A DNA stretch of 34,279 nt from positions 1 to 34,279 of IMG/VR virus record IMGVR_UViG_3300033049_000053; one strand, written 5' to 3'. Both the position numbers and the translations under genes were made by a program. Origin of the DNA: a virus. Shown piece after piece: positions 923 through 31,809 of this stretch (its first letter is position 1; the number at the start of each line of letters is the position of its first letter). The notes under the pieces are model-generated. The model was given only the letters and a program-made list of their open reading frames with translations, was not told the origin of the DNA and did not search any database.

Positions 923-2761
923 ATGATAAAGTTAGAAGATATTAAAGGAAGAAAAGCTTTAAGCCTTTTATGGCTTTACGAAGGTCGTAACCCCTATTTG
1001 TTGAACCTTAAGGAAATTCTTACGGCAAAAGGTAAGATAGCCTTAACTCCAACACAAGATTCGTACATTATTGACAACTACGACCAAGACCCTATCAAAG
1101 TAGATAGGGTAATAGGTGTTTCAACTTATCTTGGAGAGGAATTGAAGAAGAAGGATGATTTATCATTCATACCGCAAAGAATATATGTCGGTTTCGTACT
1201 GGCTGAGACTGAAAAGTCATACCACGTATTCGGTAAATTAACACAAAATCAAGTTGAATTCAGAATGTACTGGCTTCCAAAGACACAAGTTATGGAAGAC
1301 CCATACTTCATGCCTGTGGACATTGATATGGAATTTGACAAGTATATTGAGTTGGATACTATGGGAAGAGTACCATACGAGCACCAAGAAGAAGGGGTTA
1401 AATTCTTACTCAGTAGGAACGGATGTATCTTGGCTGACGACATGGGATTGGGTAAGACCTACCAAGCTATTATGGCTGCATTAGAGGCTAATGTGGATAA
1501 AGTACTGATTATATGCCCAGCATCAACCAAGATAAACTGGAAGAGAGAAATAGAAATGTTCGGGGAAACTGACATCAGTATTGTCAATTCATTTAATTGG
1601 TCACCAGCAAAATGGACAATCATTAACTACGACATACTGAAAAATTATCATACAATCACACCTAAGACTAAAAAGGAACGTGCTGGAATAGATTATTGGG
1701 ATAGAGAAATATGGGAAGAGAATTTTGGTTTGATTATTTGTGACGAAGCTCACAAATTGAAAGACCATAAAAGTAAGAGAGGGGCTATTGTGGGAGAATT
1801 GACCCAAAACCCTGCTACAGAACGTGTATGGTTATTAACTGGCACACCAGTGGCGAATAGGCCAAAGGACTTCTATAACCTCTTAAAACTCATTAAAAGC
1901 CCATTGGCCGATAACTGGCCGTTCTTCATGAAACGATATTGCGATGCTAAGTATTTATATAAGAAACTCCCAAGTGGTGGGACTAGGAAGATATTGGTAG
2001 CCAAAGGAGAATCAAACTTAGCCGAATTATCGATGAAATCTAGAAACTACGTTATGCGTAGATTGAAGACTGATGTTCTTGACATGCCAGATAAAATTGT
2101 TACACCTGTTCATCACGAACTTACGGAAGCTCAACGTACTGAATATGAGTACTTATGGGAAGAATATCTTATAGAGAGAAAAGCTAAAAAGAAGAAAGGA
2201 ACACCAGATAAAGATTTGGTTGAAATCATCCTATTACGTAGATTTATGGCTATGACTGCCATTCAGAATACAATTGATATGGCTGAGGCTGCTTTGGAAG
2301 AAGGACAAAAGGTTGTAATATTCACCACATTCAATGACGAGCAAGCCGAATTATTCGAACATTTCGGAAACAAATGTGTATTACATAATGGGTCAATGAA
2401 TGACAATGAAAAACAAAGGTCTGTCGATAAATTTCAAAAAAATGTCAGAACTAAAGTATTTATAGGTAACATCATATCTGCTGGTGTTGGTATTACCCTT
2501 ACTGAAGGTACGGTTGTAATTTTTAACTCATTTGATTGGGTTCCAGGTAACAACGAACAAGCTGAAGATAGAACATACAGAATTGGACAAGAACAAACCG
2601 TGAACGTATATTACCAATTGTTTGAAGATACTATCACAACTAAAATGTGGTACACCGTTCTTAGGAAAAGAGGTATAATTGATAAGATTATTGGTACTGG
2701 TTCTGATGATAGAACTTTTGAACTGGTAGACTACATAATAGAACACGAAGATGAGAGTTAG
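923..2761 (+). CDS. SNF2-family DNA helicase/translocase
   Basis: A 612-residue superfamily 2 ATPase of SNF2 type, which would use ATP to translocate on duplex DNA and remodel forks or strip proteins during replication and recombination. Visible motifs in order: the Q-like PYEHQEEGVKFLL segment just before motif I, Walker A DDMGLGKT (residues 172-179), the DEAH box (274-277), LLTGTPVANRP (motif III region), and motif VI QAEDRTYRIGQ (546-556) with its arginines. The first 150 residues form an extra N-terminal domain with no motif I recognise. Its C-terminal end overlaps the glutaredoxin gene by 11 bases, so the two are co-transcribed. A host-type promoter lies directly upstream. It may do the job of T4 UvsW or Dda, although it is not of those subfamilies. 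Confidence 0.93.
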   Translation: MIKLEDIKGRKALSLLWLYEGRNPYLLNLKEILTAKGKIALTPTQDSYIIDNYDQDPIKVDRVIGVSTYLGEELKKKDDLSFIPQRIYVGFVLAETEKSYHVFGKLTQNQVEFRMYWLPKTQVMEDPYFMPVDIDMEFDKYIELDTMGRVPYEHQEEGVKFLLSRNGCILADDMGLGKTYQAIMAALEANVDKVLIICPASTKINWKREIEMFGETDISIVNSFNWSPAKWTIINYDILKNYHTITPKTKKERAGIDYWDREIWEENFGLIICDEAHKLKDHKSKRGAIVGELTQNPATERVWLLTGTPVANRPKDFYNLLKLIKSPLADNWPFFMKRYCDAKYLYKKLPSGGTRKILVAKGESNLAELSMKSRNYVMRRLKTDVLDMPDKIVTPVHHELTEAQRTEYEYLWEEYLIERKAKKKKGTPDKDLVEIILLRRFMAMTAIQNTIDMAEAALEEGQKVVIFTTFNDEQAELFEHFGNKCVLHNGSMNDNEKQRSVDKFQKNVRTKVFIGNIISAGVGITLTEGTVVIFNSFDWVPGNNEQAEDRTYRIGQEQTVNVYYQLFEDTITTKMWYTVLRKRGIIDKIIGTGSDDRTFELVDYIIEHEDES

Positions 2762-3017
2762 ATTATATACAACAAATGACTGTCCTTTCTGTAAGGAGAT
2801 GTTAGAACACTTTAAAAGTGAAAAGATTGACTTCACTGAAGTTAATATCAGGAAAGCGACAAATAAAGCCGAATTCGCTAAAATTCAAGAGGTTAGTGGA
2901 GCTGACAGCGTACCTATCATTTTGGTAGGTAAAAACATCTTAATTCCAGACCGTTCATTCCGAACAATAAAGGAAGGCTTTGAAATCACCAAAAAAATAT
3001 TGTCCGATAACGCTTAA
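2751..3017 (+). CDS. Glutaredoxin
   Basis: An 88-residue thioredoxin-fold protein of normal glutaredoxin length. The dithiol active site CPFC is at residues 11-14, after a first beta strand (RVRLYTT), and the cis-proline loop SVPIILVG carries Pro55. Phage glutaredoxins typically pass electrons from glutathione or thioredoxin systems to ribonucleotide reductase. No reductase gene is in this window, so the partner is not known. The start lies 11 bases inside the end of the helicase gene, in another frame, which implies translational coupling. A candidate late promoter follows its stop, so it ends its transcription unit or is read through into the gene at 3060. Confidence 0.92.
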   Translation: MRVRLYTTNDCPFCKEMLEHFKSEKIDFTEVNIRKATNKAEFAKIQEVSGADSVPIILVGKNILIPDRSFRTIKEGFEITKKILSDNA

Positions 3018-3035
3018 TGTTTATCTGTTTGCTAG

Positions 3036-3050
3036 ATATTTATAGTTAAA
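3036..3050 (+). promoter_or_regulatory. Candidate phage late promoter (ATATTTAT-N3-TAAA)
   Basis: ATATTTAT at 3036-3043, three bases, then TAAA at 3047-3050. The ATG of the next gene is at 3060, 16 bases after the octamer. The position falls in the 42-base gap between glutaredoxin and a probable virion gene, as expected for a separate late start. Confidence 0.55.
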
Positions 3051-3059
3051 CAGAATACA

Positions 3060-4211
3060 ATGGCAGTATCAAATGAGGATAAATTAAAAATATTCGCTCA
3101 GTTCCGAGCGCAAATGGGTGCTCCAGTTCGAAACATCGAAATGGAAGACGAAACCCTATGCATACTTCTGGAGATTGCAATCGAAGATTACGCCCAATAC
3201 ATACAAGAATGGCTAATCGAACACCAATGGCAATCGTTGTTAGGTGCTAACATAGATACCACGGATATGGCATTCGCAATGAGTGTTAGGTCTCTGGATT
3301 TCATCAGCCAATACTCATACGCATACTCGAAACAAGTAGGGCTTCAAACTAGAGGACCTTGGGAATTGAAGAAGGATTTTGTGACCCTAGAAACTGGTCG
3401 ACAGGTATATGAAATACCTGCTGGCCGTGAGGTAAACGAAGTATTATGGTTAACACCTCCTACTACGGATATGGCACTTATGGCCAACTACGCTGGTATC
3501 GATTTTGGTTTCGGTGGTGGTAATGCACAACTTGGCTCTGCTGGTGGTGGTATGAACGGTGGTGGTATGGGTGGTGCAGGTGGCTACTACATAGCGCCTG
3601 CTTATGACATCCTTTTAACTGCTCAAGATTTCAATCTTAAAAATAGGATTCTTAGAAGTGAAATGACATACAAAGTAACGGCAGGACCTGGAGGCACTAG
3701 GTTATTACATTTGATGTCCGTTCCAGGTTCTAAACTATCATTTGGTCACGGAATAGGTGGTGCTGCATCCAATTCAATAAATATGACTGGATGTCAAGTT
3801 TGGTACCACTATTATGACACTACGCCAGAAAATGTGGATGAGTGTAGATTGGATAACCCAGACATCATCAAATTACCTAATGAAGTTCCATTGTCTAAAT
3901 TAGATTACGCAGACTTTAATTTTCCAACTAAAGCACTGGTACGTCAATTGTTTGTTGCTGAATCTAAAAGAGCATTGGGAAGGACAAGAGGTAAATTCGG
4001 TGGCGTGATAGGGCCGCCTGAAGCTGAACGTACAATGGACTACGAAACACTAATCACTGAAGGAAACGATGAGAGAAGATTTGTTTTGGAAAGATTGGAT
4101 GAAAGATTATTGAGATTATCTTCTGAGTCGCAAATTGAACGTGCAGCTAACGAAGCTGAGAACCTTAATCGACAGTTAAAATACAAGCCTTTAGGATTCT
4201 ACTTCAAGTAA
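3060..4211 (+). CDS. Probable virion structural protein (possibly neck/head completion)
   Basis: A 383-residue soluble protein. The N-terminal part is helical and acidic (for example ILLEIAIEDYAQYIQEWLI). The middle contains SQYSYAYSKQVGLQ and GPWELKKDFV followed by beta strands. A flexible Gly/Met-rich loop sits at about residues 148-177 (repeated GGG and GGMGG), and a second beta region contains CQVWYHYYDTT. The C-terminal 70 residues form a charged helical tail (RRFVLERLDERLLRL). The layout and size resemble neck proteins of T4-like phages such as gp13, but I see no decisive motif, so that name is only a suggestion. It has its own candidate late promoter and lies between two replication-type genes. 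Confidence 0.6.
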   Translation: MAVSNEDKLKIFAQFRAQMGAPVRNIEMEDETLCILLEIAIEDYAQYIQEWLIEHQWQSLLGANIDTTDMAFAMSVRSLDFISQYSYAYSKQVGLQTRGPWELKKDFVTLETGRQVYEIPAGREVNEVLWLTPPTTDMALMANYAGIDFGFGGGNAQLGSAGGGMNGGGMGGAGGYYIAPAYDILLTAQDFNLKNRILRSEMTYKVTAGPGGTRLLHLMSVPGSKLSFGHGIGGAASNSINMTGCQVWYHYYDTTPENVDECRLDNPDIIKLPNEVPLSKLDYADFNFPTKALVRQLFVAESKRALGRTRGKFGGVIGPPEAERTMDYETLITEGNDERRFVLERLDERLLRLSSESQIERAANEAENLNRQLKYKPLGFYFK

Positions 4212-4265: not shown

Positions 4266-7200
4266 ATGCAGAACATAGACAACGAAACTATCGTCCAGTT
4301 TTTAGAAGGACACGACCCCCAAGAACATATAGTAGCCATTGAAGCGCCTTATCATGTTAATAAGGCTTACTTAATCATCAATCACCCTGAGAAGGGGAAA
4401 TATATAGAGACACATCATTACGAACCTTTCGTTTGGATGAAGCATGCCGTTTCAGGAACTCTGTACGGTGGTAATCGAGCCAGAATCAAAGAAGCTATGA
4501 TGAACTATGGCATCAAAATTAAGGCTCTACAAATAGCAAACGAAGAAGGGTACACTCCAGACAGGATGAAGAACGGGTTCAAATACCTTGCATCCTCAAG
4601 CCAAAGCTATACAGCATTATTAAACTTCTTCAAGGAAGGTGGACACGATGTCTACGATAGTACCAAAGCTAGAAATTTCATGGCACTTAACCCTACTGAG
4701 CAATTCCTAATTGCAACAGGGAAACGTATGTTCAAAGGTAAGAACGACTATGACGACTTACACAGATTCCAATTTGACCTTGAAACAACTGGATTAGACC
4801 CAAGACGGGATTCTATTTTCCAGATTGGTATGAAAGATAATCGTGGTTACGAAATGATTGTCGAAACCATTGGCGATACGCCACAAGAAAAGCGAGATAG
4901 TGAGCGTGTAAATATCGTTAAATTCTTTGACGAACTAATTCGTATTAAGCCAGATACAATTGTTGGGTATAACTCAGAATTCTTTGACTGGAACTTCTTC
5001 GAAGTGAGATGCGGAATACTAGGCATCCCAATGGAAGACATCGCAAGAACACTTAACAAAACGTCTAAGATTAGACGTAGAGACTCCCAAATCAAATTAG
5101 GGGCTGAGACAGAATACTACAAACAAACAATGATGTGGGGATTCAATATATTGGATATTTCTCACTCAGTTAGACGAGCACAAGCCATTAACTCTGACAT
5201 TAAATCTTGGAGTTTGAAGTATATCACTAAGTTCTCCAAAGTTAATAAGAAGAACAGGGTATATGTAGATGGTGACGCCCTACACGATACTTGGGCACAA
5301 ACAGAGGACAATTTCTTATTCAATAATACTGATGGAGATTGGTTCAAATTTGACCCCACTGATGAAGACCATCTTAAGAAATTAGAATCTGGTAAATACG
5401 AACGTAAGAATGGTGCGTTCATCGTGCGTAGATATTTGTTAGATGACCTTTGGGAAACTGAAATGGTCGATGGCATCTATAACCAAGCATCATTCCTATT
5501 ATCTAAACTATTGCCGACTTCTTACATGAGAAGCTCTACAATGGGAACGGCCAGCCAATGGAAATTAATATTGGCAGCTTGGTCTTACGAACAAAATATA
5601 GGTATCCCAGATTACGAAGCTAAGAGAAGCTTTACTGGTGGTCTATCAAGATTACTTAAGGTAGGATTCGCCAAGATTGTAGCAAAACTAGATTATGCGG
5701 CACTTTACCCTAAATGTACTCTCACGTATGATATTTTCCCTTCGTTAGATATTACTGGCGTTATGAAGGGTCTATTAAAATACGTTGTAGATACTCGTGA
5801 TGAATTCAAATTCCTTACTGGTAAGTACAAGGGAATGGTTAAGAAGTTTAAAGTTGACCTTGAAGTAACCGACCCTAATAGTGCTGATTATCAAATACTT
5901 ATAGATAAAATAACTGAGTATGAGAAATTAGCGTCTGATGCTGACAAAAAACAATTGCCGCTTAAGATATTAGCAAACTCATTCTTTGGGTCTTACGGAG
6001 CGCCACATATTTTCCCATGGGGAGATAGTAACTGTGCCGAAAAGATTACCTGTATGTCCAGACAACACCTTAGACTTATGGTTAAATGGTTCTTAGATAA
6101 ATTCGGATTTGACCCACTTGTGGGTGATACTGATGGTTTTAACTTTGCATTGCCAGATAACATTGAGGACTTTATATATACAACCAAAGGTGACCACTGG
6201 AAAACTAAAGAATACGGAGTCACTGAACTAAAAGGTCTCGATGCTACCGTGGCTGAATTCAATGAAACTCACATGGAAGGATGGATGGGGCTAGATATAG
6301 ATGATATATGCTCAACCACAATCAACTTCAAACGTAAGAATTATGCTAATATGATTGACGGTAAAATGAAGCTTGTAGGTAACTCTATTAAATCTAAAAG
6401 AATGCCAATCTATATTGAAGAATTCTTAGATAATGGTATTAAAATGCTATTGAATGGTAATGGTCATGATTTCGTGGAGCATTACAATGAGTATGTAGAT
6501 AAAATTTATAATTATGAGATTCCTTTGATGAAAATTGCATCTAAGGCAAGAGTTAAACAATCTATTGACGCTTACAAAAAGGATTGTAAATCAAAAACTA
6601 AAGCTGGACATTTCAAAGCTAGAAAAGCTCATATGGAGCTATTAATCGCGAACAATAGACCTGCTAACTTAGGTGATACTATATACTATGTGAATATTGG
6701 TAAAACAAAATCTACTGGTGACGTAACTAAGGTAACCGATAAAGAAACTAATAAGGTAACTATAAATCTAAATTGTAAACTAATCTCACAAGCTGAGATT
6801 GAAAGTAATCCAGACCTTACAACAGATGAGTACAATGTATCCAAATACATCGCGGCACTAAATAAAAGGCTGGAACCGCTATTGGTGTGTTTCTCTCCCG
6901 AAATCAGAGATGAAATTCTTATTGGTTTGAGTAAAGATAAAAAGACTAAAGAATATGTTCTTAATGACAGAAAAGTATTCACAGAAAAACAATGCGAATT
7001 AAGTTCTGGCCAACCAATCAATCCTACAGACCAAGATACGTTAGAGGACTTTTATACGCTGGCCGATACTGAGATAGAATTCTGGCACAATATCAATGAG
7101 ACACCAAATCAAATGACTGATAATGAATGGACTTTGATTGAAGAAGATTGGATTGAGAGAATTCGTATAGCCAGAGAGGTCGGTATTAGTAGTGATAGGG

Positions 7201-7814
7201 CTAGATTAATCGATACTTGTCGTAGATTAGAAACTTCTGACCTTAGAAATATAGAAGTGTACGGTAAGATACCTAAGTCTATTGAGTTGTTCACATATTT
7301 GAACTTAGAGGATAAAACCTTATGTTCTACAGAGTTCGGGATACCTTTAGCTAAGTTGGGTATTCTATTCGATTACCAAGACGAAGCATTATTGAGAGAT
7401 AAATTCTATCAGACTATTCTTCCAGAAATGAGAGGATATATTGAGGAAGGTGGGGAGTACGATGATTATAGCTGTTGGATATGGTTTTTAGAAGAGATTC
7501 AAGATGATAGGTTTGAAGTAGATAGATTCGCTAAAATTAAATTCTGGATTGACCTTATTGGTATTTTAGGATTTGTAACGTATTATGACCTACCAGAAGA
7601 TGAAATAAATAACCATTGGCTTAAACTACTAGAATTGCAAGTCACTGATGAGTATACTGCCCCAAGTAATAGAGAACCAGAGAACGAGCAAGATGGTAAT
7701 GAATCTGAGGAAGAGTTCATTAGTACTACTAAGGAAGAGAAAACAATACTTTCTCTCGTTGACGAAGTTAGAAATAAAATGAATACATTAGAGAATGATG
7801 ATTGGGGATTCTAA
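4266..7814 (+). CDS. Family B DNA polymerase with 3'-5' exonuclease (T4/RB69 gp43-like)
   Basis: The replicative polymerase, 1182 residues. The exonuclease motif I DLETTG has Asp171 and Glu173, and exonuclease II is NSEFFD (236-241). Polymerase motif A is DYAALYP (Asp476), motif B is KILANSFFG (Lys567-Gly575), and motif C is GDTDGF with Asp621 and Asp623. A KxY-type motif, KRKNY, follows near residue 690. The catalytic set is complete, though motif C has Gly where Ser is usual. The A-to-B interval is about 60 residues shorter than in RB69 polymerase (Asp411, Lys560), suggesting a reduced fingers domain. About 560 residues follow motif C, against about 280 in RB69, so there is a long C-terminal extension. 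The end is acidic and finishes in NDDWGF, which could be a clamp-binding tail (inference). It has a strong host-type promoter and is convergent with the gene at 7820. Confidence 0.96.
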   Translation: MQNIDNETIVQFLEGHDPQEHIVAIEAPYHVNKAYLIINHPEKGKYIETHHYEPFVWMKHAVSGTLYGGNRARIKEAMMNYGIKIKALQIANEEGYTPDRMKNGFKYLASSSQSYTALLNFFKEGGHDVYDSTKARNFMALNPTEQFLIATGKRMFKGKNDYDDLHRFQFDLETTGLDPRRDSIFQIGMKDNRGYEMIVETIGDTPQEKRDSERVNIVKFFDELIRIKPDTIVGYNSEFFDWNFFEVRCGILGIPMEDIARTLNKTSKIRRRDSQIKLGAETEYYKQTMMWGFNILDISHSVRRAQAINSDIKSWSLKYITKFSKVNKKNRVYVDGDALHDTWAQTEDNFLFNNTDGDWFKFDPTDEDHLKKLESGKYERKNGAFIVRRYLLDDLWETEMVDGIYNQASFLLSKLLPTSYMRSSTMGTASQWKLILAAWSYEQNIGIPDYEAKRSFTGGLSRLLKVGFAKIVAKLDYAALYPKCTLTYDIFPSLDITGVMKGLLKYVVDTRDEFKFLTGKYKGMVKKFKVDLEVTDPNSADYQILIDKITEYEKLASDADKKQLPLKILANSFFGSYGAPHIFPWGDSNCAEKITCMSRQHLRLMVKWFLDKFGFDPLVGDTDGFNFALPDNIEDFIYTTKGDHWKTKEYGVTELKGLDATVAEFNETHMEGWMGLDIDDICSTTINFKRKNYANMIDGKMKLVGNSIKSKRMPIYIEEFLDNGIKMLLNGNGHDFVEHYNEYVDKIYNYEIPLMKIASKARVKQSIDAYKKDCKSKTKAGHFKARKAHMELLIANNRPANLGDTIYYVNIGKTKSTGDVTKVTDKETNKVTINLNCKLISQAEIESNPDLTTDEYNVSKYIAALNKRLEPLLVCFSPEIRDEILIGLSKDKKTKEYVLNDRKVFTEKQCELSSGQPINPTDQDTLEDFYTLADTEIEFWHNINETPNQMTDNEWTLIEEDWIERIRIAREVGISSDRARLIDTCRRLETSDLRNIEVYGKIPKSIELFTYLNLEDKTLCSTEFGIPLAKLGILFDYQDEALLRDKFYQTILPEMRGYIEEGGEYDDYSCWIWFLEEIQDDRFEVDRFAKIKFWIDLIGILGFVTYYDLPEDEINNHWLKLLELQVTDEYTAPSNREPENEQDGNESEEEFISTTKEEKTILSLVDEVRNKMNTLENDDWGF

Positions 7815-21992: not shown

Positions 21993-22274
21993 ATGAAAAA
22001 TTATATCACAACAAAATGGGGCAATCTTAAGAATTGGTTCTTCCATAAGATTATCGTAAAGATTTTCGATAACCAAATTACATCATCAATATTGATAGTA
22101 AATGAAGATGGTACGCTACCATATACCGTCACCAAGGACTTTGTAATTCTAACACTTAATGGTGGTGGTAAGATACAAATAAATAAGGACAGATTCTGGG
22201 AAAATGTTAGACAATTATTTGCTGGTGATAAGAACACTGAAGAGTATAACCCAGAGATAGAGGCTGGTAAATGA
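21993..22274 (+). CDS. Small unrecognised protein, 93 aa
   Basis: The open frame extends upstream to 21960, but the ATG at 21993, just after the dUTPase stop, avoids a long overlap and gives a 93-residue protein starting MKNYITTKWGNLKNWFF. It has an amphipathic, aromatic N-terminal helix that could be membrane-associated, followed by strands (SSILIVNEDGTLPYTVTKDF, then VILTLNGGGKIQI) and an acidic end. I recognise no family. The stop overlaps the start of the GT2-GT4 fusion by ATGA, so the two are coupled. A small adaptor or regulator is possible. Confidence 0.55.
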   Translation: MKNYITTKWGNLKNWFFHKIIVKIFDNQITSSILIVNEDGTLPYTVTKDFVILTLNGGGKIQINKDRFWENVRQLFAGDKNTEEYNPEIEAGK

Positions 22275-23911
22275 TTAGTGTAATCTACTGTACAAGAGTT
22301 ACCAATAAAGCTCATACTGAACACCTTAGACGAAGTTCTGGTATGGCTAAGAATATTGAGATAATCGAAGTTATTAATAATGGAGAGTCTTTGACGGTTG
22401 CTTACAATAGGGCACTTAAGCAAACTAGTCATGATATTGTGGTATTTTGTCACGATGACCTTACAATAGAAACTAAATCATGGGGGCATAAATTAATTAA
22501 GCAATTTAATCGTAATCCAGAGTTCGGTATAATAGGTGTAGCTGGGTCTAAACATCTACCAATTACAGGTAGATGGTGGGACGACAAGAAGAAAATGTAT
22601 GGCAGAGTAAAACACACTAACGATGGTAAAAGCTGGCTTTCAGCATACAGTCCTGACCAAGGACATAGACTTGAAGAAGTTGTGAATGTTGATGGTGTGT
22701 TCTTCGCAATACATAGAGATAGGATTAAGACTTATTTTGACGAGTCCGTTGAAGGATTTCACTTCTACGATGTTGACTTCTCGTTCAACAATCATATGGC
22801 TGGGTGTAAAGTCGGTGTAACTACAATAATTAGAATCAATCACCAATCAATAGGAGTAACCAATGATGAGTGGGAAGATAATAGAAAAATATTTGCTGAA
22901 AAATACAAGGATAAATTACCAGTTAAAATTGACGAGACTTATGAGTATAGAAAATTAAAGGTACTTATTGGGTGTCTAAATTTCCAAGGACTTACTGGTT
23001 CTGAAATATCAACATTAGAGACAGCTAAGGCTCTGACCAATATTAATTGTGATGTTCACGTTATCTCTAGTACTGTTAGCCCTAAATTTGCCTCCATATG
23101 TAAGCGTTACGGCATTAAAACATATTTGTTTACTGAGCCGCCAAGTTATAAGTTAGGTGACGGTAAATGGAGTGTAAACACACCACAAGGAGTACAACAA
23201 TCTAAGGAGGGAACGTTATATTTCACTAATCAAATTCAGTTTGATGTAATACACACAAATCACACACCTATAACGGAACAATTACTAAAATTATATCCTA
23301 ACAACACGTTTGTTAATATAGTTAGGTCTGAAGTAATAGACCTTGAAAATCCAGTTATTAATGACAAGATTAAAAAATACGTTGCGATTAGACCATCTAT
23401 CAAAACATATTTGATGGATACATATGGAATTGAGGATGAGAAAATAGAAGTAATTTATAATCCATTCGATAAGACTAGGTTCAAGCCAAAGACAATACCT
23501 AACGGAACCGATAAAAAGGTTACGTTATTTGTCGGAACGATGGACTACCTTAGAGAAGAGGCTATTAGAGACCTTATAGAAGGGTGTGAAGAGCTATGGC
23601 TTGTGGGTAAGGATAGTGGGGACTACGCTGCTAAAATGGGTGAAGAATATGATAATGTAACATACTTCCCACCAACTGACAATATTGAAGAGTTTTTCTA
23701 TAAATGTGATGAGACTGCTGGTATCTTCTTAGGAAGAACGACCATTGAAGGTTTCCTTTGTGATAAGCCAGCAATAATATACAATGTTAATAAATATGGC
23801 AATGTTATAGATAAAGAATTGGTACAGGTTCCTGAAGATATGAGCATTTTCGATATTGATAATATCATTGCCAAATATAAAAAACTGTACATAGAAGTAG
23901 CCAATGCATGA
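22271..23911 (+). CDS. Two-domain glycosyltransferase (GT2-like + GT4-like)
   Basis: A 546-residue fusion. Residues 1-220 form a GT-A domain of GT2 type: MISVIYCTRVTN, NNGESLTVAYNRAL, and VVFCHDDL with the acidic metal-binding group at 61-63, then VDGVFFAIHRDRI and YDVDFSFNNHMAG, a layout seen in the GT2-like 'family 2_5' group. From about residue 233 (LKVLIGCLNFQGLTGSEIST) a GT-B domain of GT4 type runs to the end, with GVQQSKEG, IEVIYNPFDKTRF, LFVGTMDYLR and a final donor-side EGFLCDKPAIIYN. Two glycosyl transfers could be made in turn by one polypeptide. It overlaps both neighbours by ATGA. Confidence 0.85.
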   Translation: MISVIYCTRVTNKAHTEHLRRSSGMAKNIEIIEVINNGESLTVAYNRALKQTSHDIVVFCHDDLTIETKSWGHKLIKQFNRNPEFGIIGVAGSKHLPITGRWWDDKKKMYGRVKHTNDGKSWLSAYSPDQGHRLEEVVNVDGVFFAIHRDRIKTYFDESVEGFHFYDVDFSFNNHMAGCKVGVTTIIRINHQSIGVTNDEWEDNRKIFAEKYKDKLPVKIDETYEYRKLKVLIGCLNFQGLTGSEISTLETAKALTNINCDVHVISSTVSPKFASICKRYGIKTYLFTEPPSYKLGDGKWSVNTPQGVQQSKEGTLYFTNQIQFDVIHTNHTPITEQLLKLYPNNTFVNIVRSEVIDLENPVINDKIKKYVAIRPSIKTYLMDTYGIEDEKIEVIYNPFDKTRFKPKTIPNGTDKKVTLFVGTMDYLREEAIRDLIEGCEELWLVGKDSGDYAAKMGEEYDNVTYFPPTDNIEEFFYKCDETAGIFLGRTTIEGFLCDKPAIIYNVNKYGNVIDKELVQVPEDMSIFDIDNIIAKYKKLYIEVANA

Positions 23912-25398
23912 TTTCAGTAATATTAAACGTATACAAACGACCCTACACTTTAGAGGCACAAATTGAAGCCATAAAGAACCAGAGTATTAACATCAAAAGT
24001 GAAGACATTCACGTATGGTACAATACTCCAGAGGATAATACCGAACAATTCTTGCCAGAAGACGAGAATATAAGGACGTATGAATGTAACTACAATACCA
24101 AATTTTTTGGTAGATTCATGTTACCGTTAATCTGTAAAACACCGTATATTGCGATGTTAGATGACGATACAATACCCAGTAAGGATTGGCTGAAAAACTG
24201 CCTTGATTCAATCAACAAATGTAATGGTATTTTGGGTGCCAGTGGCGTGATAACCAATGGTAAGACATATGTCCCAAATATGAAGGTAGGTTGGAACGGC
24301 CTACATAGTGATAAGATTGAGAAGGTCGACTTAGTTGGACATGGGTGGTTCTTCAAGCAAGAGTGGGCAAAATTCATGTGGATGGAAGAACCACCATCAT
24401 GGGATAATGGTGAAGATATGTTCTTCTCGTATATGGCACAAAAGAATGGTGTTGATACCTTTGTACCACCTCATCCAGAGAATAATGTAGACTTGTGGGG
24501 TAATAATCCTAAACACGACCATAATTGGGGATTCGACAAGAATGCTCATTCTTTGTCGGTTAGTAATCACTTAACATTAAGAAATAGTATTGTGGGAGAC
24601 CTTATTAATAAAGGGTGGGAAACGATTAAAAAAACACCTAAAACTAAGACATTTAGAGGGCATTTCGATATGTTATTAGATAAACTTAAAAGTGGTGAAC
24701 ATTTCGGTTATTGTCGTTTCTCTGATGGTGAGTTCAGAATTATGGAAAATATAGAGCTAATTCTGGCTGCTGACCATTACAAAATAGGTGATAAAAAATT
24801 ACGTGGAACTTACGCTGCTGAAGACCACAAACACTTCGACCCAAGTAAACATAATTTCCATCATAATAAATTAATGGAATCATATAGATTCAAGAAGGAC
24901 AATTATTTCGTGGGACTTAGCTGTCGTTGCTGTATAGGTGAGAAGGATTTCAAACGAATGCTTGAGATGTATGAGGGTGATACTAATAGTGACAATCTTA
25001 CATGGTCTAACTTATTTTTAAATGGTAACTATCCAGCTTTCATTAAGGAATATTTGCCAGAATTTAAAAAGAAGAAAATTGTTTACATCGTAAATGAAAA
25101 CGCTGTTTTATCTGGGTTACCATTTGAGGTTGTAAAGGATTTTAGAGTTGGGGAAAATTGTATAATAAATAATTATGATATGGTAGAGGAAGTTAAAAAT
25201 TGGATTGATGATAATAATATTGAAGACCATGTGTTTTTATTCTCTGCCTCTAGTCTAAGTAATTTTATGGTTCATCAGTTGTTTGAACATAATAATAAAA
25301 ATACGTACATTGATGTCGGCACTACATTAAATCCATATATTGGAATGAAAGCTAGGCGTGGGTATCATAACGGTAACTCAAAAATCTGTATTTGGTAA
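23908..25398 (+). CDS. Two-domain glycosyltransferase (GT2 + GT-D/DUF1792-like)
   Basis: A 496-residue fusion. Residues 1-230 are a GT2 GT-A domain: MISVILNVYKRPYTL, AMLDDDTIPSKDW with the metal-binding acids at 85-87, and WDNGEDMFFSYMAQKNG, which matches the family's ED acid/base segment. From about residue 250 comes a domain with YCRFSDGEFRI (Arg270-Glu275), CIGEKDFKRML, and a closing IDVGTTLNPYIGMKARRGY. RFxDGE and a final DVG segment mark the GT-D (DUF1792) fold, whose DGE replaces the classical DxD. It would extend the glycan by two different sugars. It is joined to the previous gene by ATGA and to the next by TAATG. Confidence 0.82.
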   Translation: MISVILNVYKRPYTLEAQIEAIKNQSINIKSEDIHVWYNTPEDNTEQFLPEDENIRTYECNYNTKFFGRFMLPLICKTPYIAMLDDDTIPSKDWLKNCLDSINKCNGILGASGVITNGKTYVPNMKVGWNGLHSDKIEKVDLVGHGWFFKQEWAKFMWMEEPPSWDNGEDMFFSYMAQKNGVDTFVPPHPENNVDLWGNNPKHDHNWGFDKNAHSLSVSNHLTLRNSIVGDLINKGWETIKKTPKTKTFRGHFDMLLDKLKSGEHFGYCRFSDGEFRIMENIELILAADHYKIGDKKLRGTYAAEDHKHFDPSKHNFHHNKLMESYRFKKDNYFVGLSCRCCIGEKDFKRMLEMYEGDTNSDNLTWSNLFLNGNYPAFIKEYLPEFKKKKIVYIVNENAVLSGLPFEVVKDFRVGENCIINNYDMVEEVKNWIDDNNIEDHVFLFSASSLSNFMVHQLFEHNNKNTYIDVGTTLNPYIGMKARRGYHNGNSKICIW

Positions 25399-26456
25399 TG
25401 TTAGAATTAGTTAATAATCACGAAAAATATTATGAGTTTATCAGAATTCTAAGAACCCACAATAATAATATTTCAGGATTCTTAGAGCAGGCGGATATTA
25501 CGTCAAACCAACAAATAGCTTATATGGCTAAGTATAAGGAGGACTACTATGTGGCGCTAGATGATGGTGAACCCGTGGGATGGGTAGGGGATGTAGATTC
25601 CGATATTAGAGTTTGTACACATGCAGACCACAAAGGTAGGGGTATTGGTAAGTTTATGATTAACGAATTGATGAAGAAACACCCAGACGGTCAGGCTAAG
25701 GTCTTATTGGAGAATGTGGCTAGTAATAAATTATTCATAACTTGTGGATTCATTAACTATAAATCTGACGATAAATATCATTACTATAAGAAAGAAAACT
25801 ACAATAAATCCAAACACAATCCCTATACGATAGTTAAAATGTTTGAGGAAGAGGTAGCATCGTATACTGGTGCTAAATACGCAGTATCGGTAGATAGTTG
25901 CACAAACGCCTTATTTTTATGTTTAGAATATCAAAAACGCCAACTCAATAAAAATGATAATATGGAAATAACAATTCCATCTAAAACATATTTGTCTGTA
26001 CCACAATCAATCATTCATGCTGGGTTCGTACCAGTATTTGATACGAATATGAATGATTGGCAAGGTATCTATCCGTTGAAACCATTTGCCATCTATGATG
26101 CGGCAAAAAGATTTACATCTGGAATGTATATTGAGGACTCATTTATGTGTCTGTCCTTCCACATTAAGAAACATATTAAGATTGGTAAGGGTGGAATGAT
26201 ACTAACTAACGATGCAGATGCCGTAGAATGGTTTAAAATGGCCAGATATGAGGGTAGAAGTGAAAAGCTTTATCATGAGGACGACATAACAATGCTTGGA
26301 TGGAATATGTATATGACACCACAAGAGGCTGCTCACGGATTAGCTCTTATGCAAAACTATCCTAACAATGTATCTGATTTGGGTGAAAATGATGGGTATA
26401 GAGACTTAACTGAGTTTTCTATATTTAAAGAATACAAAGTAATTAGTTATGATTAA
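25398..26456 (+). CDS. GNAT acetyltransferase fused to a compact DegT/DnrJ-type aminotransferase
   Basis: I place the start at the ATG at 25398, overlapping the previous stop (TAATG). A TTG-initiated extension to 25392 also exists but is less likely. The 352-residue product has a GNAT domain at about 1-130, with TRVCTHADHKGRGIGKFMI-like acetyl-CoA loop (HKGRGIGKF) and LENVASNKLFITCGF. It then has a PLP-dependent DegT-type domain: TGAKYAVSVDSCTNALFLCL, Asp234 in AIYDAAKRF, and SFHIKKHIKIGKGGMIL with Lys258 at the Schiff-base position. The aminotransferase part is about 220 residues, against 370-400 normally; the C-terminal small domain is largely missing. Expected chemistry: transamination of a nucleotide keto-sugar and N-acetylation, like WecE and WecD joined. 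Confidence 0.82.
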   Translation: MLELVNNHEKYYEFIRILRTHNNNISGFLEQADITSNQQIAYMAKYKEDYYVALDDGEPVGWVGDVDSDIRVCTHADHKGRGIGKFMINELMKKHPDGQAKVLLENVASNKLFITCGFINYKSDDKYHYYKKENYNKSKHNPYTIVKMFEEEVASYTGAKYAVSVDSCTNALFLCLEYQKRQLNKNDNMEITIPSKTYLSVPQSIIHAGFVPVFDTNMNDWQGIYPLKPFAIYDAAKRFTSGMYIEDSFMCLSFHIKKHIKIGKGGMILTNDADAVEWFKMARYEGRSEKLYHEDDITMLGWNMYMTPQEAAHGLALMQNYPNNVSDLGENDGYRDLTEFSIFKEYKVISYD

Positions 26457-27003
26457 CCACAAATTAAAATGTATATTCATTCACATACCAAAAACGTCTG
26501 GCACATCCATTAAGAATACATTAGAGGGTTTTGATAAGGAAGTTGGGTATCACGCTAGACCACAACTAATCGAAGATTATAACCCAACTGTGTGGTCTAA
26601 CTATTTCAAATTCACATTTGTTAGAAACCCATTCGATAGAATATATTCTATTTATTCGTATTATAAAATGGGTAAGGCAATAACCTTAGTAAACCCAAAT
26701 AAACTACCCGACACCTTCGAGAACTTTATTATGGACATAGATAACAATCTTAAGAAGCTTGGATTGGATTATAATCAAATGGATTTCTTAAATTTAGATG
26801 TTGATTACGTTGGAAGATATGAAACCGTACAAGTTGATTTTGATGAAATATGTACAAGACTAGGAGTAGATGAAAGACAATTAAATAACGATAGAAAATC
26901 TAAAAGGGTCAAGGATTATAAACAGGTATATACATCAGAAATGGTAACAATAGTTAGTGATTATTTTAATAAGGATATTGAAAAGTTTAATTATACGTTT
27001 TAA
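26449..27003 (+). CDS. Sulfotransferase (family 2-like)
   Basis: A 184-residue PAPS-dependent sulfotransferase of the glycan type. The 5'-phosphosulfate loop is IFIHIPKTSGTSI (residues 9-21), a good match to the IPKTAGTS signature of Sulfotransfer_2 enzymes, and the 3'-phosphate site is FTFVRNPFDRIYSIYSYY, with Arg59 and Ser67. It is short for the family (about 220-260 residues), with a compact C-terminal part, and lacks the signal anchor of eukaryotic relatives, so it is cytoplasmic. It overlaps the aminotransferase gene by eight bases and abuts the next gene by TAATG. It would sulfate the glycan that its neighbours build. It is only distantly like the other sulfotransferase at 8307-9128. 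Confidence 0.88.
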   Translation: MINHKLKCIFIHIPKTSGTSIKNTLEGFDKEVGYHARPQLIEDYNPTVWSNYFKFTFVRNPFDRIYSIYSYYKMGKAITLVNPNKLPDTFENFIMDIDNNLKKLGLDYNQMDFLNLDVDYVGRYETVQVDFDEICTRLGVDERQLNNDRKSKRVKDYKQVYTSEMVTIVSDYFNKDIEKFNYTF

Positions 27004-27827: not shown

Positions 27828-28540
27828 ATTGTGCAATAATACTATATACTCATACTGATGTTAAAGATGTCTGGCCTCCGTTTTTTGGTCAAACTAAGAA
27901 ATATCTAAACGGTTTTAAGAAATATATCTTCGTTAACGATAATGACATCAACATCCCAGAGGAGTACAATATAGTATTGTATGATGACAGTAAAATATAT
28001 CGAAAAAGGTTTCTATCTTGTTTACAACAATTAGACGATGAATTTGTGATGATACATCATGAAGACATGTTCTTATATGGTGAACCTGACATAAATAAAT
28101 TAAAAATTTACCAAGATAGGTTGACAAATCAATATTCTTTCGTTAAATTGATAAGAGGTGGGAATAGTAGGGGAAAATCAGATGATATATATCCAGAATT
28201 AAAGAAAATTGATAAATCGTTTGAATATATCTTTGCAATTCAGCCCACCATTTGGAAAAGAGAGAAGCTGATAGAACTATTGGAGAATAGTAGCGGTGAT
28301 ACAATCTGGGAGTTCGAAGTGGCTGCACAAAAAACGTGTAGAGATAGAAATATCTTAGGATATTATGTTGATGATGGTGGGGTTAAAAGAGGTAGATTTC
28401 ATTGGGATTCTAAGGTTTATCCTTACGTTGCTACTGCGGTAGTTAAAGGTAAGTGGAATATAAAGGAGTACCCAGAAGAATTAAAAAAGATTAGTGAAGA
28501 CTATAATATTAGTTATAAAATAAGAGGTACCAATGGTTAA
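27824..28540 (+). CDS. Putative glycosyltransferase-like protein, 238 aa
   Basis: A 238-residue protein with the strand order of a small GT-A enzyme: CAIILYTHTDVKDVWPPFFG, KYIFVNDND, FVMIHHEDMFLYG (an acidic motif at the DxD position), SFVKLIRGGNSRG and FAIQPTIWKREKLIELL, then WEFEVAAQKTCRD, where WEFE may be the catalytic acid region. The family is not certain. It overlaps the previous gene by ATGA and the next by eight bases. It probably adds one more residue to the glycan. Confidence 0.58.
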   Translation: MNCAIILYTHTDVKDVWPPFFGQTKKYLNGFKKYIFVNDNDINIPEEYNIVLYDDSKIYRKRFLSCLQQLDDEFVMIHHEDMFLYGEPDINKLKIYQDRLTNQYSFVKLIRGGNSRGKSDDIYPELKKIDKSFEYIFAIQPTIWKREKLIELLENSSGDTIWEFEVAAQKTCRDRNILGYYVDDGGVKRGRFHWDSKVYPYVATAVVKGKWNIKEYPEELKKISEDYNISYKIRGTNG

Positions 28541-29903
28541 ATTAGTAGTATTCGATTTAGATGGTGTATTAGTAGACGCAAAAGAAATACATTACGAATC
28601 GTTAAATAGGGCGTTAGGTGAAATAGATGATAAATTCATTATCAGTAGGGAGGAACATATGACAACATATGATGGACTACCAACGAAAAAAAAATTAGAA
28701 ATTCTCACAAAGCATAAAGGATTTCCAAAAGAACAGTACGATAATATATGGAACAGGAAACAAGAATTGACAGCCTTAGTCATCAAAGACTCTTTACCGT
28801 TTGACTCTAGATTAAGGTCTGTGTTGCAAAGATTAAAGAACGATGGGGTAATAATATACGTCTGTTCTAATTCAATCAGAGAAAGCCTTAAATTAATGTT
28901 ATATAAGACTGGGCTAATTGAATTTGTAGATTATTCATTATCCAATGATGATGTAGTGAATCCAAAACCTAGCCCAGAAATATATTTGAAGGCTATGATT
29001 CATGCTGGTGTTAAGCCAGCCGAAACACTAATAATTGAGGATAGTTATCATGGTCGGCAATCTGCAACTGATTCTGGTGGCCATTTATGTGGTGTCGAGT
29101 CTCCAGATGATGTAACATATGAAAGAATAAAAAAACAAATGGATATGATAGAAGAACGTCACATTAATAATACTAAGTGGGAAGGAGAAGACTTCAATAT
29201 CCTCATCCCAATGGCTGGTGCTGGAAGTAGATTCGCTAACGCTGGGTATACATTTCCAAAACCACTAATTGAGATTAATCATAAGCCGATGATTCAAGTT
29301 GTGGTGGAGAATCTTAATATCAATGCTCATTTCATATATCTGGTACAGAAAGTCCACTATGAGAAATATAACCTAAAGTACTTACTAAATTTGATAACAC
29401 CTAACTGTACAATAGTCCAAGTTGACGGTGTAACTGAAGGTGCCGCTTGTACAAGTTTATTGGCCAAAAAATACATTGACAATGATAAACACTTACTGAT
29501 TGCCAATTCAGACCAATTCGTTGAGTGGGATAGTAACAACTTTTACTATTCTGTTGTCGGTGACAACGTGGATGGCTCTATATTGACATTCAAATCAACT
29601 CACCCAAAATGGAGCTTTGTAAAATTAGATGATAATGGACATGTGATTGAACTGGCTGAGAAAAAACCTATTAGTGATATCGCCACAGTAGGTATCTACT
29701 GTTGGAATAGTGGAGCCGAATACGTTAAGTATGCGGAACAGATGATAGATAACAATGTGAGGGTTAATGGTGAATATTATATTGCTCCAGTTTACAATGA
29801 AGCGATTGCTGATGGTAAGAAGATTAAAACGTATAACATTGAGAAGATGTGGGGATTAGGTACTCCAGAGGACTTAAATCACTATTTAGAGAATTTTGAA
29901 TAA
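28533..29903 (+). CDS. HAD phosphatase fused to a sugar nucleotidyltransferase
   Basis: A 456-residue fusion. Residues 1-205 are a HAD-family phosphatase/mutase domain: FDLDGVLVD with Asp8 and Asp10, motif II VCSNSIRES, motif III Lys in NPKPSPEIYL, and motif IV IIEDSYHG, all intact and close to beta-phosphoglucomutase-type enzymes. Residues 220-456 are a nucleotidyltransferase: IPMAGAGSRFANAGYTFPKP (225-244), HLLIANSDQFVEW as the metal-binding region, and GEYYIAPVYNEAI near the end, typical of NTP_transferase enzymes making NDP-sugars. One protein could thus dephosphorylate (or isomerise) a sugar phosphate and activate it. The sugar and the nucleotide are unknown. The start overlaps the previous gene by eight bases. 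Confidence 0.9.
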   Translation: MVKLVVFDLDGVLVDAKEIHYESLNRALGEIDDKFIISREEHMTTYDGLPTKKKLEILTKHKGFPKEQYDNIWNRKQELTALVIKDSLPFDSRLRSVLQRLKNDGVIIYVCSNSIRESLKLMLYKTGLIEFVDYSLSNDDVVNPKPSPEIYLKAMIHAGVKPAETLIIEDSYHGRQSATDSGGHLCGVESPDDVTYERIKKQMDMIEERHINNTKWEGEDFNILIPMAGAGSRFANAGYTFPKPLIEINHKPMIQVVVENLNINAHFIYLVQKVHYEKYNLKYLLNLITPNCTIVQVDGVTEGAACTSLLAKKYIDNDKHLLIANSDQFVEWDSNNFYYSVVGDNVDGSILTFKSTHPKWSFVKLDDNGHVIELAEKKPISDIATVGIYCWNSGAEYVKYAEQMIDNNVRVNGEYYIAPVYNEAIADGKKIKTYNIEKMWGLGTPEDLNHYLENFE

Positions 29904-30813: not shown

Positions 30814-31809
30814 ATGATATTACTTATTTACGGAACCCGACCAGAATATATTAAAGTTAAACCTCTCATTGATGAGATGATAAGCAGAGATATGCAATTC
30901 AAAACATTATTCACTGGTCAGCATAAAGACATCGTTCCGAAAAAGGCCGACTACAATCTGACTATGGAAAACCATGACGGAAATAGATTAGATTCTGTAC
31001 TCAAAAACTGCCTTAGTATTCCAGAAGAGTGTTTTGAAGGAATTACCCACATCTTGGTTCAAGGTGACACTACTTCGGTTGTGGGGTTAGCCATCACTGC
31101 TATGAATAGAAAAATTAAGGTAATTCACTTAGAAGCTGGGCTTAGAACCTACGACTATGAAAATCCTTTTCCAGAAGAGAATAATCGAAGAATTGTATCT
31201 ACTATTGCGTCCATACATTTATGTCCGACTACTAAGAATGAAGATAACCTGAAGAAAGAAAACTTAATTGGAGAGACATATGTCGTAGGTAATACGGTCT
31301 TAGATACGTTGATTAAATACAAAAAAGATTGTGTCTATACGGATACTGTATTAGTAACTATGCATAGGAGAGAAAACCATCATAATATGAGAAATTGGTT
31401 CACCGCTATTGACGATTTGGCTGAAGCCAATCCTGAAATAATGTTTGTAATTCCCCTTCATCCGAACCCGAACGTGCAAAAGAATAAGAAGTATCTATCA
31501 AACCTAACGATAATCCACCCACTCAACCATGACGAATTAATTAAGATTTTAGTTAAGGTTAAATTGGTTATTACTGATAGTGGTGGACTACAAGAAGAAT
31601 GTTCATTTTTCAATAAGAAAGCGCTGGTTTGTAGAAAGATAACTGAGAGACCAGAGTCTGTGGGTACGACCAGTTTTATGGTTGAATCACCTAAAAAATT
31701 ATCTAAACTGTTTTACAAACATATTAAAGAATACGAGACTGATGCAGAATGTCCATATGGGGATGGAGACAGTTCTAATAAAATTTGCAACATACTGGCG
31801 AAATTATGA
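30814..31809 (+). CDS. wecB: UDP-N-acetylglucosamine 2-epimerase
   Basis: A 331-residue non-hydrolysing type UDP-GlcNAc 2-epimerase, which makes UDP-ManNAc. Motifs are GTRPEYIKVKPLI near the start, VQGDTTSVVG, HLEAGLRTYDYENPFPEENN and RRIVSTIASIHLCPT, VTMHRRENHHN, PLHPNPNVQKN and TDSGGLQEECSF, all in the family order and with the acidic and His residues of the active site present. It is a little shorter than bacterial WecB (about 375 residues) because of trimmed loops. It provides the ManNAc route for the glycan or, as in WecC pathways, a uronic acid. No UDP-ManNAc dehydrogenase is seen here. It overlaps the next gene by ATGA. Confidence 0.93.
   Translation: MILLIYGTRPEYIKVKPLIDEMISRDMQFKTLFTGQHKDIVPKKADYNLTMENHDGNRLDSVLKNCLSIPEECFEGITHILVQGDTTSVVGLAITAMNRKIKVIHLEAGLRTYDYENPFPEENNRRIVSTIASIHLCPTTKNEDNLKKENLIGETYVVGNTVLDTLIKYKKDCVYTDTVLVTMHRRENHHNMRNWFTAIDDLAEANPEIMFVIPLHPNPNVQKNKKYLSNLTIIHPLNHDELIKILVKVKLVITDSGGLQEECSFFNKKALVCRKITERPESVGTTSFMVESPKKLSKLFYKHIKEYETDAECPYGDGDSSNKICNILAKL

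Follow-up and report, generated by a model that had tools for sequence, protein, structure and literature searches.

The gene at positions 25398..26456 (plus strand, as are all features of the gene and its cluster given below) of a 34,279-base virus record (IMGVR_UViG_3300033049_000053, the whole of which is the window analysed here) raises the question of whether an acetyltransferase and a much reduced aminotransferase can act together as one amino-sugar enzyme. It is a single intact open reading frame encoding 352 aa (stop codon included in the coordinates), with a GNAT domain first and a DegT-type aminotransferase second; it overlaps both neighbors, its ATG running into the stop codon of the glycosyltransferase gene upstream and its 3' end into a sulfotransferase gene. 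Both halves scored above their Pfam cut-offs, the N-terminal one for Acetyltransf_7 (33.9 bits, cut-off 27) and the C-terminal one for DegT_DnrJ_EryC1 (85.6 bits, cut-off 19.8), which bears out the fusion proposed in a first-pass annotation of this DNA.

The N-terminal half (residues 1-133, 25398..25796; Acetyltransf_7/Acetyltransf_1, with a confident structural model) is a GNAT acetyltransferase domain by its Pfam gathering score and its acetyl-CoA motif. The acetyl-CoA loop KGRGIG occupies residues 79-84, of which Gly82 is found in 100% and Gly84 in 91% of the aligned relatives. The closest curated GNAT model, and the only one matched, was RimI, at 24.3 bits and far under its cut-off, and the fusion protein gave no match to the WecD/RffC equivalogs TIGR02382 or PRK10975 (NCBIfam, E <= 0.001).

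The C-terminal half (residues 142-352, 25821..26453) is a reduced DegT fold-type-I unit, called mini-aminotransferase in the following. As the first-pass annotation had it, Lys258 in SFHIKK (26169..26171), the predicted Schiff-base lysine, and Asp234 in YDAA (26097..26099), predicted to pair with the ring nitrogen of PLP, are both kept at the positions claimed, and the C-terminal small domain is missing, the half measuring about 210 aa against about 370 in solved relatives. Two features are to be added to that account. Alignment with three full-length DegT proteins locates an internal loss at residues 214-233 (26037..26096), where the full-length proteins have an extra beta-alpha unit and the mini forms keep only W-x-G-x-Y-x-L; both the loss of the small domain and that of the unit between Phe214 and Asp234 run throughout the mini family. 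We take this unit, deleted just before Asp234, to hold strand d of the central sheet. In addition, Lys237 (26106..26108) replaces a glutamine conserved in sugar aminotransferases (PMC7439462). Among 133 distinct sequences, position 237 is Lys in 109, Val in 10, Leu in 9, Gly in 3 and Thr in 2, and eleven residues are invariant (133/133 each): Asp234, Ser253 of the SFH motif (26154..26156), Phe254, Lys258, Gly265, Gly266, Gly286, Arg287, Tyr198, Tyr225 and Gly301. They are intact even in some members only about 33% identical to the aminotransferase of the fusion. Asn303, the residue that reaches into the active site of the partner subunit in relatives such as ArnB, is largely conserved as well.

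A frameshift or a lost end was rejected as the cause of the short aminotransferase, and mis-assembly likewise, since relatives encode the short form in a separate, complete gene. To look for relics of the small domain, the final 120 aa of each of four full-length DegT proteins were compared with the entire window; the best match had E = 0.81. The same queries matched only full-length or end-truncated DegT proteins, so that a small domain supplied by a neighboring gene was rejected too, and a stand-alone small-domain gene was absent among all selected open reading frames of the related loci. Differences among the compared relatives are most frequent at third codon positions, and dN is low. Conservation over 133 distinct sequences, with change concentrated at third codon positions, indicates that the short form is not due to chance.

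A search of viral contigs with the whole fusion protein returned 80 loci in which the aminotransferase half is a complete gene of about 200-240 aa, and an alignment search with this half alone matched at least 588 stretches of viral sequence as well as 26 sites in genome assemblies of bacteria and archaea, of which several are metagenome-assembled and perhaps viral. The reduction, for which the protein had been judged unusual, is real, but it characterizes a common viral family that is normally encoded alone. In cells the family is patchy: a strong match was obtained in only one of 61 genomes of the genus Prochlorococcus, and the idea of a typical cyanobacterial gene was rejected. In three Prochlorococcus genomes a protein of ~240 aa directly precedes the mini-aminotransferase (L092 3216-3938, L093 3204-3944, L094 3202-3936); that of L092, the one scanned, had no Pfam match. 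In some viral contigs, two distinct mini-aminotransferases lie no more than a few kb apart, one member of the pair belonging to a distant branch (L024, 4004-4645 and 7975-8565; L038, 1199-1795 and 3995-4618; also L133, L151, L154 and L155). The genome of Flavobacterium phage immuto (L176) encodes a full-length DegT protein (2277-3476) and a mini form (5986-6630) within a single glycan cluster, and each of them is annotated as WecE. In cyanophage S-SCSM2R (L182, 2998-3585) the mini-aminotransferase is annotated as 3-amino-5-hydroxybenzoate synthase, with a radical SAM gene beside it and an inosamine amidinotransferase gene four genes further on.

AlphaFold predicted the aminotransferase half alone with a pLDDT of 92.9 and the whole fusion with a pLDDT of 91.2 and a pTM of 0.71; the latter value and the low confidence of the linker are expected for two domains without fixed mutual placement. 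The best Foldseek match of the aminotransferase half in the PDB was GDP-perosamine synthase (E 5e-11), and nearly all of its PDB matches were sugar aminotransferases. Comparison with VIA gave Z scores of ~18-20 and an rmsd of ~2.7-3.3 Å over ~205 residues with structures including WlaRG, DesV, ArnB and WecE (4piw, Z 19.1). All models are of single chains, and active-site closure is outside their reach. Pfam, PHROGs and NCBIfam agree in placing this half among the DegT sugar aminotransferases, and it passes the PF01041 gathering score and has the PLP lysine and the ring-nitrogen aspartate; the complete two-domain subunit and the conserved glutamine are absent. The WecE equivalog PRK11706 gave 30.6 bits against a cut-off of 375. 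Since the small domain is absent from the whole mini family, we file it as a reduced subfamily rather than as a canonical DegT member. It is best read as an uncharacterized subfamily that resembles the WecE/WecD pair in how it works and belongs to neither; a search of the available literature found no earlier account of such a shortened DegT protein.

The nearest relatives, including the syntenic locus L002 on a 362-kb contig, encode GNAT domain and mini-aminotransferase as two overlapping genes. Comparison of the junction at the DNA level showed that the second gene's start codon has been replaced in the window, leaving a continuous frame; the resulting linker (residues 134-141, 25797..25820), in which model confidence dips to 66, occupies the position of the GNAT stop and the aminotransferase ATG in the relatives. 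Fused genes were also found in L142, L148 and L169, and a fusion unique to this window was thereby rejected; fusion is nevertheless rare, being limited to the window and these three relatives. In the tree the window lies apart from the other three, which indicates that the fusion arose at least twice. A second such difference occurs in the same cluster: the glycosyltransferase at 23908-25398 is a single gene here and is split in L002 into two overlapping genes (2512-3243 and 3219-3998).

The surroundings of the gene point to glycan synthesis. Upstream lie a glycosyltransferase with two GT domains (22271..23911) and the adjoining one (23908..25398), which has a GT2 domain (Pfam Glycos_transf_2), an unassigned C-terminal domain and an RFSDGE motif, and homologs in 88 related loci. 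Downstream follow the overlapping sulfotransferase (26449..27003, Pfam Sulfotransfer_2), a fusion of a HAD phosphatase/phosphomutase-like domain with a sugar-1-phosphate nucleotidyltransferase (28533..29903; homologs in 27 related loci) and a UDP-GlcNAc 2-epimerase of the wecB type that passes its curated cut-off (30814..31809). No 4,6-dehydratase was identified within the 34,279-base window and only a sub-threshold match in the syntenic 362-kb relative; in the neighborhoods of relatives, 4,6-dehydratase-like genes are common. The DNA polymerase (4266-7814) shares 58% identity with its counterpart on the 362-kb contig, which makes it likely that the window is part of the genome of a large phage.

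The first scan had used the whole fusion and so favored loci with GNAT genes; adjacency was recounted on a scan with the aminotransferase only. An acyltransferase was found directly upstream of, or fused to, 45 of 76 distinct mini-aminotransferases, as compared to 7 of 726 among the remaining genes of these loci. The 45 comprise 29 GNAT proteins, 10 hexapeptide acetyltransferases, three WecD-like GNAT proteins and three fusions; about 40% of the mini-aminotransferases have no recognized upstream acyltransferase. A formyltransferase occupies the upstream slot in L066 and L101, and the mini-aminotransferase of the cultured Flavobacterium phages immuto has a PglB/NeuD-type acetyltransferase after it. 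That different acyltransferase folds share one slot would be best explained by their acting on the amine made by the aminotransferase, and this context supports keto-sugar amination and N-acetylation.

On balance we favor, with somewhat better than even confidence, the reading that the fusion would be a bifunctional amino-sugar enzyme of the glycan-building cluster of a large phage, combining the reduced DegT half with the GNAT half. Lys258 would form the Schiff base with PLP, and an amino group would be moved from an amino-acid donor to a keto-sugar, most likely nucleotide-linked. The GNAT domain would then acetylate the new amine with acetyl-CoA, and the resulting acetylated amino sugars would probably enter a glycan of the phage or of its host. 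The aminotransferase is probably dimeric, as Asn303 is largely kept. In fold-type-I aminotransferases a small domain normally shapes the substrate site, moves over the substrate and closes on it. Its absence, the replacement of the conserved glutamine by lysine and a GNAT half nearer to RimI than to WecD all count against this reading, as do the lack of a 4,6-dehydratase in the window and the share of mini-aminotransferases with no recognized upstream acyltransferase. It is a tentative proposal, to which we give slightly less than even weight, that a widespread viral lineage consists of active fold-type-I aminotransferases with a subunit of ~205 residues, which lack the small domain and one strand of the central sheet, and whose site would be completed by the dimer partner or by the acyltransferase frequently adjacent or fused to them.

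The same losses and the replaced glutamine could mean that NDP-sugar transamination is not the task of the mini-aminotransferase and that this PLP enzyme acts on another carbonyl (a cyclitol, a free keto-sugar or a glycan-linked sugar) or catalyzes another PLP reaction such as dehydration or racemization. The annotation and inosamine amidinotransferase neighborhood of the cyanophage copy and the lack of a dehydratase in the window would fit, and we give this explanation some weight while considering it unlikely: the Schiff-base lysine is invariant, whereas ColD/E1 dehydratases have a histidine in its place, and the acyltransferase and formyltransferase neighbors are consistent with a product bearing a newly formed free amine. 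Taken further, the loss of a domain and a core strand and the low similarity to characterized enzymes could reflect a degenerate, regulatory or structural remnant without catalysis, leaving only the GNAT half, or nothing, active. This is hard to reconcile with catalytic residues identical in 133 of 133 sequences, with low dN and the preponderance of third-position differences, and with a compact, confidently predicted fold, and appears quite improbable.

The two overlapping genes of the nearest relatives, the syntenic contig included, would be expected if the phage itself had two separate genes and an assembly or sequencing artefact had joined them here, but the second start codon is replaced rather than merely put in frame, and three other contigs carry a fusion elsewhere in the tree, so that we regard an artefact as very improbable indeed. 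The GNAT domain might also adjoin the aminotransferase for co-expression only and act on some other target, such as a protein in the manner of RimI. The sub-threshold RimI match, the sole one to a curated GNAT model, is in line with this; that unrelated acyltransferase folds take the same slot argues instead for the product amine as common substrate, and fusion at least twice also speaks against it, which makes co-expression alone improbable in our view. Should the bifunctional amino-sugar enzyme we favor be active, a family without the small domain and a core strand would show how little of the fold catalysis needs, and the mini-aminotransferases would offer small proteins for testing minimal fold-type-I catalysis. 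The family also suggests that large phages commonly make amino sugars, using an N-acyltransferase slot whose occupant can be exchanged.

The closest parallel is the WecE/WecD (RffA/RffC) pair of enterobacterial common antigen synthesis, with which the viral protein shares the aminotransferase fold, the PLP lysine and the aspartate; WecD is a GNAT protein as well (PMC7439462). The first-pass annotation had regarded the domain order, acetyltransferase first, as reversed, which is wrong: in E. coli K-12 rffC (wecD) lies directly upstream of wecE. Its comparison to WecD/WecE chemistry is fair by context as regards the mode of working and does not extend to family membership, as the curated models of both were missed widely. 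WecE is full length and has the conserved glutamine, whereas the viral enzyme lacks the small domain and the internal unit and has lysine for glutamine, and the two enterobacterial activities reside in separate proteins. GDP-perosamine synthase and other DegT/DnrJ/EryC1/StrS aminotransferases provide the best fold matches and share the PLP-site motifs, but have a two-domain subunit of about 370 aa, compared to ~210 aa in the viral form. In Mimivirus, L136 (aminotransferase) and the N-terminal domain of L142 (N-acetyltransferase) have been shown biochemically to act in the UDP-Vio4NAc pathway (PMC9614988), a precedent for viral enzymes that aminate and N-acetylate a nucleotide sugar destined for a viral glycan, a role that for the fusion is inferred. 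L136 is a stand-alone fold-type-I enzyme of 352 aa, unlike the short fused form, and the PglB-like acetyltransferase of L142 is fused to a glycosyltransferase, not to an aminotransferase. Similar fusions may exist elsewhere, as the predicted structure of Solumvirus A0A3G5AKE8 (569 aa, "PglD N-terminal domain-containing") matches the aminotransferase half and its name implies an acetyltransferase-type domain; judged by name and length, it fits a full-size aminotransferase with a PglD-type domain rather than a GNAT.
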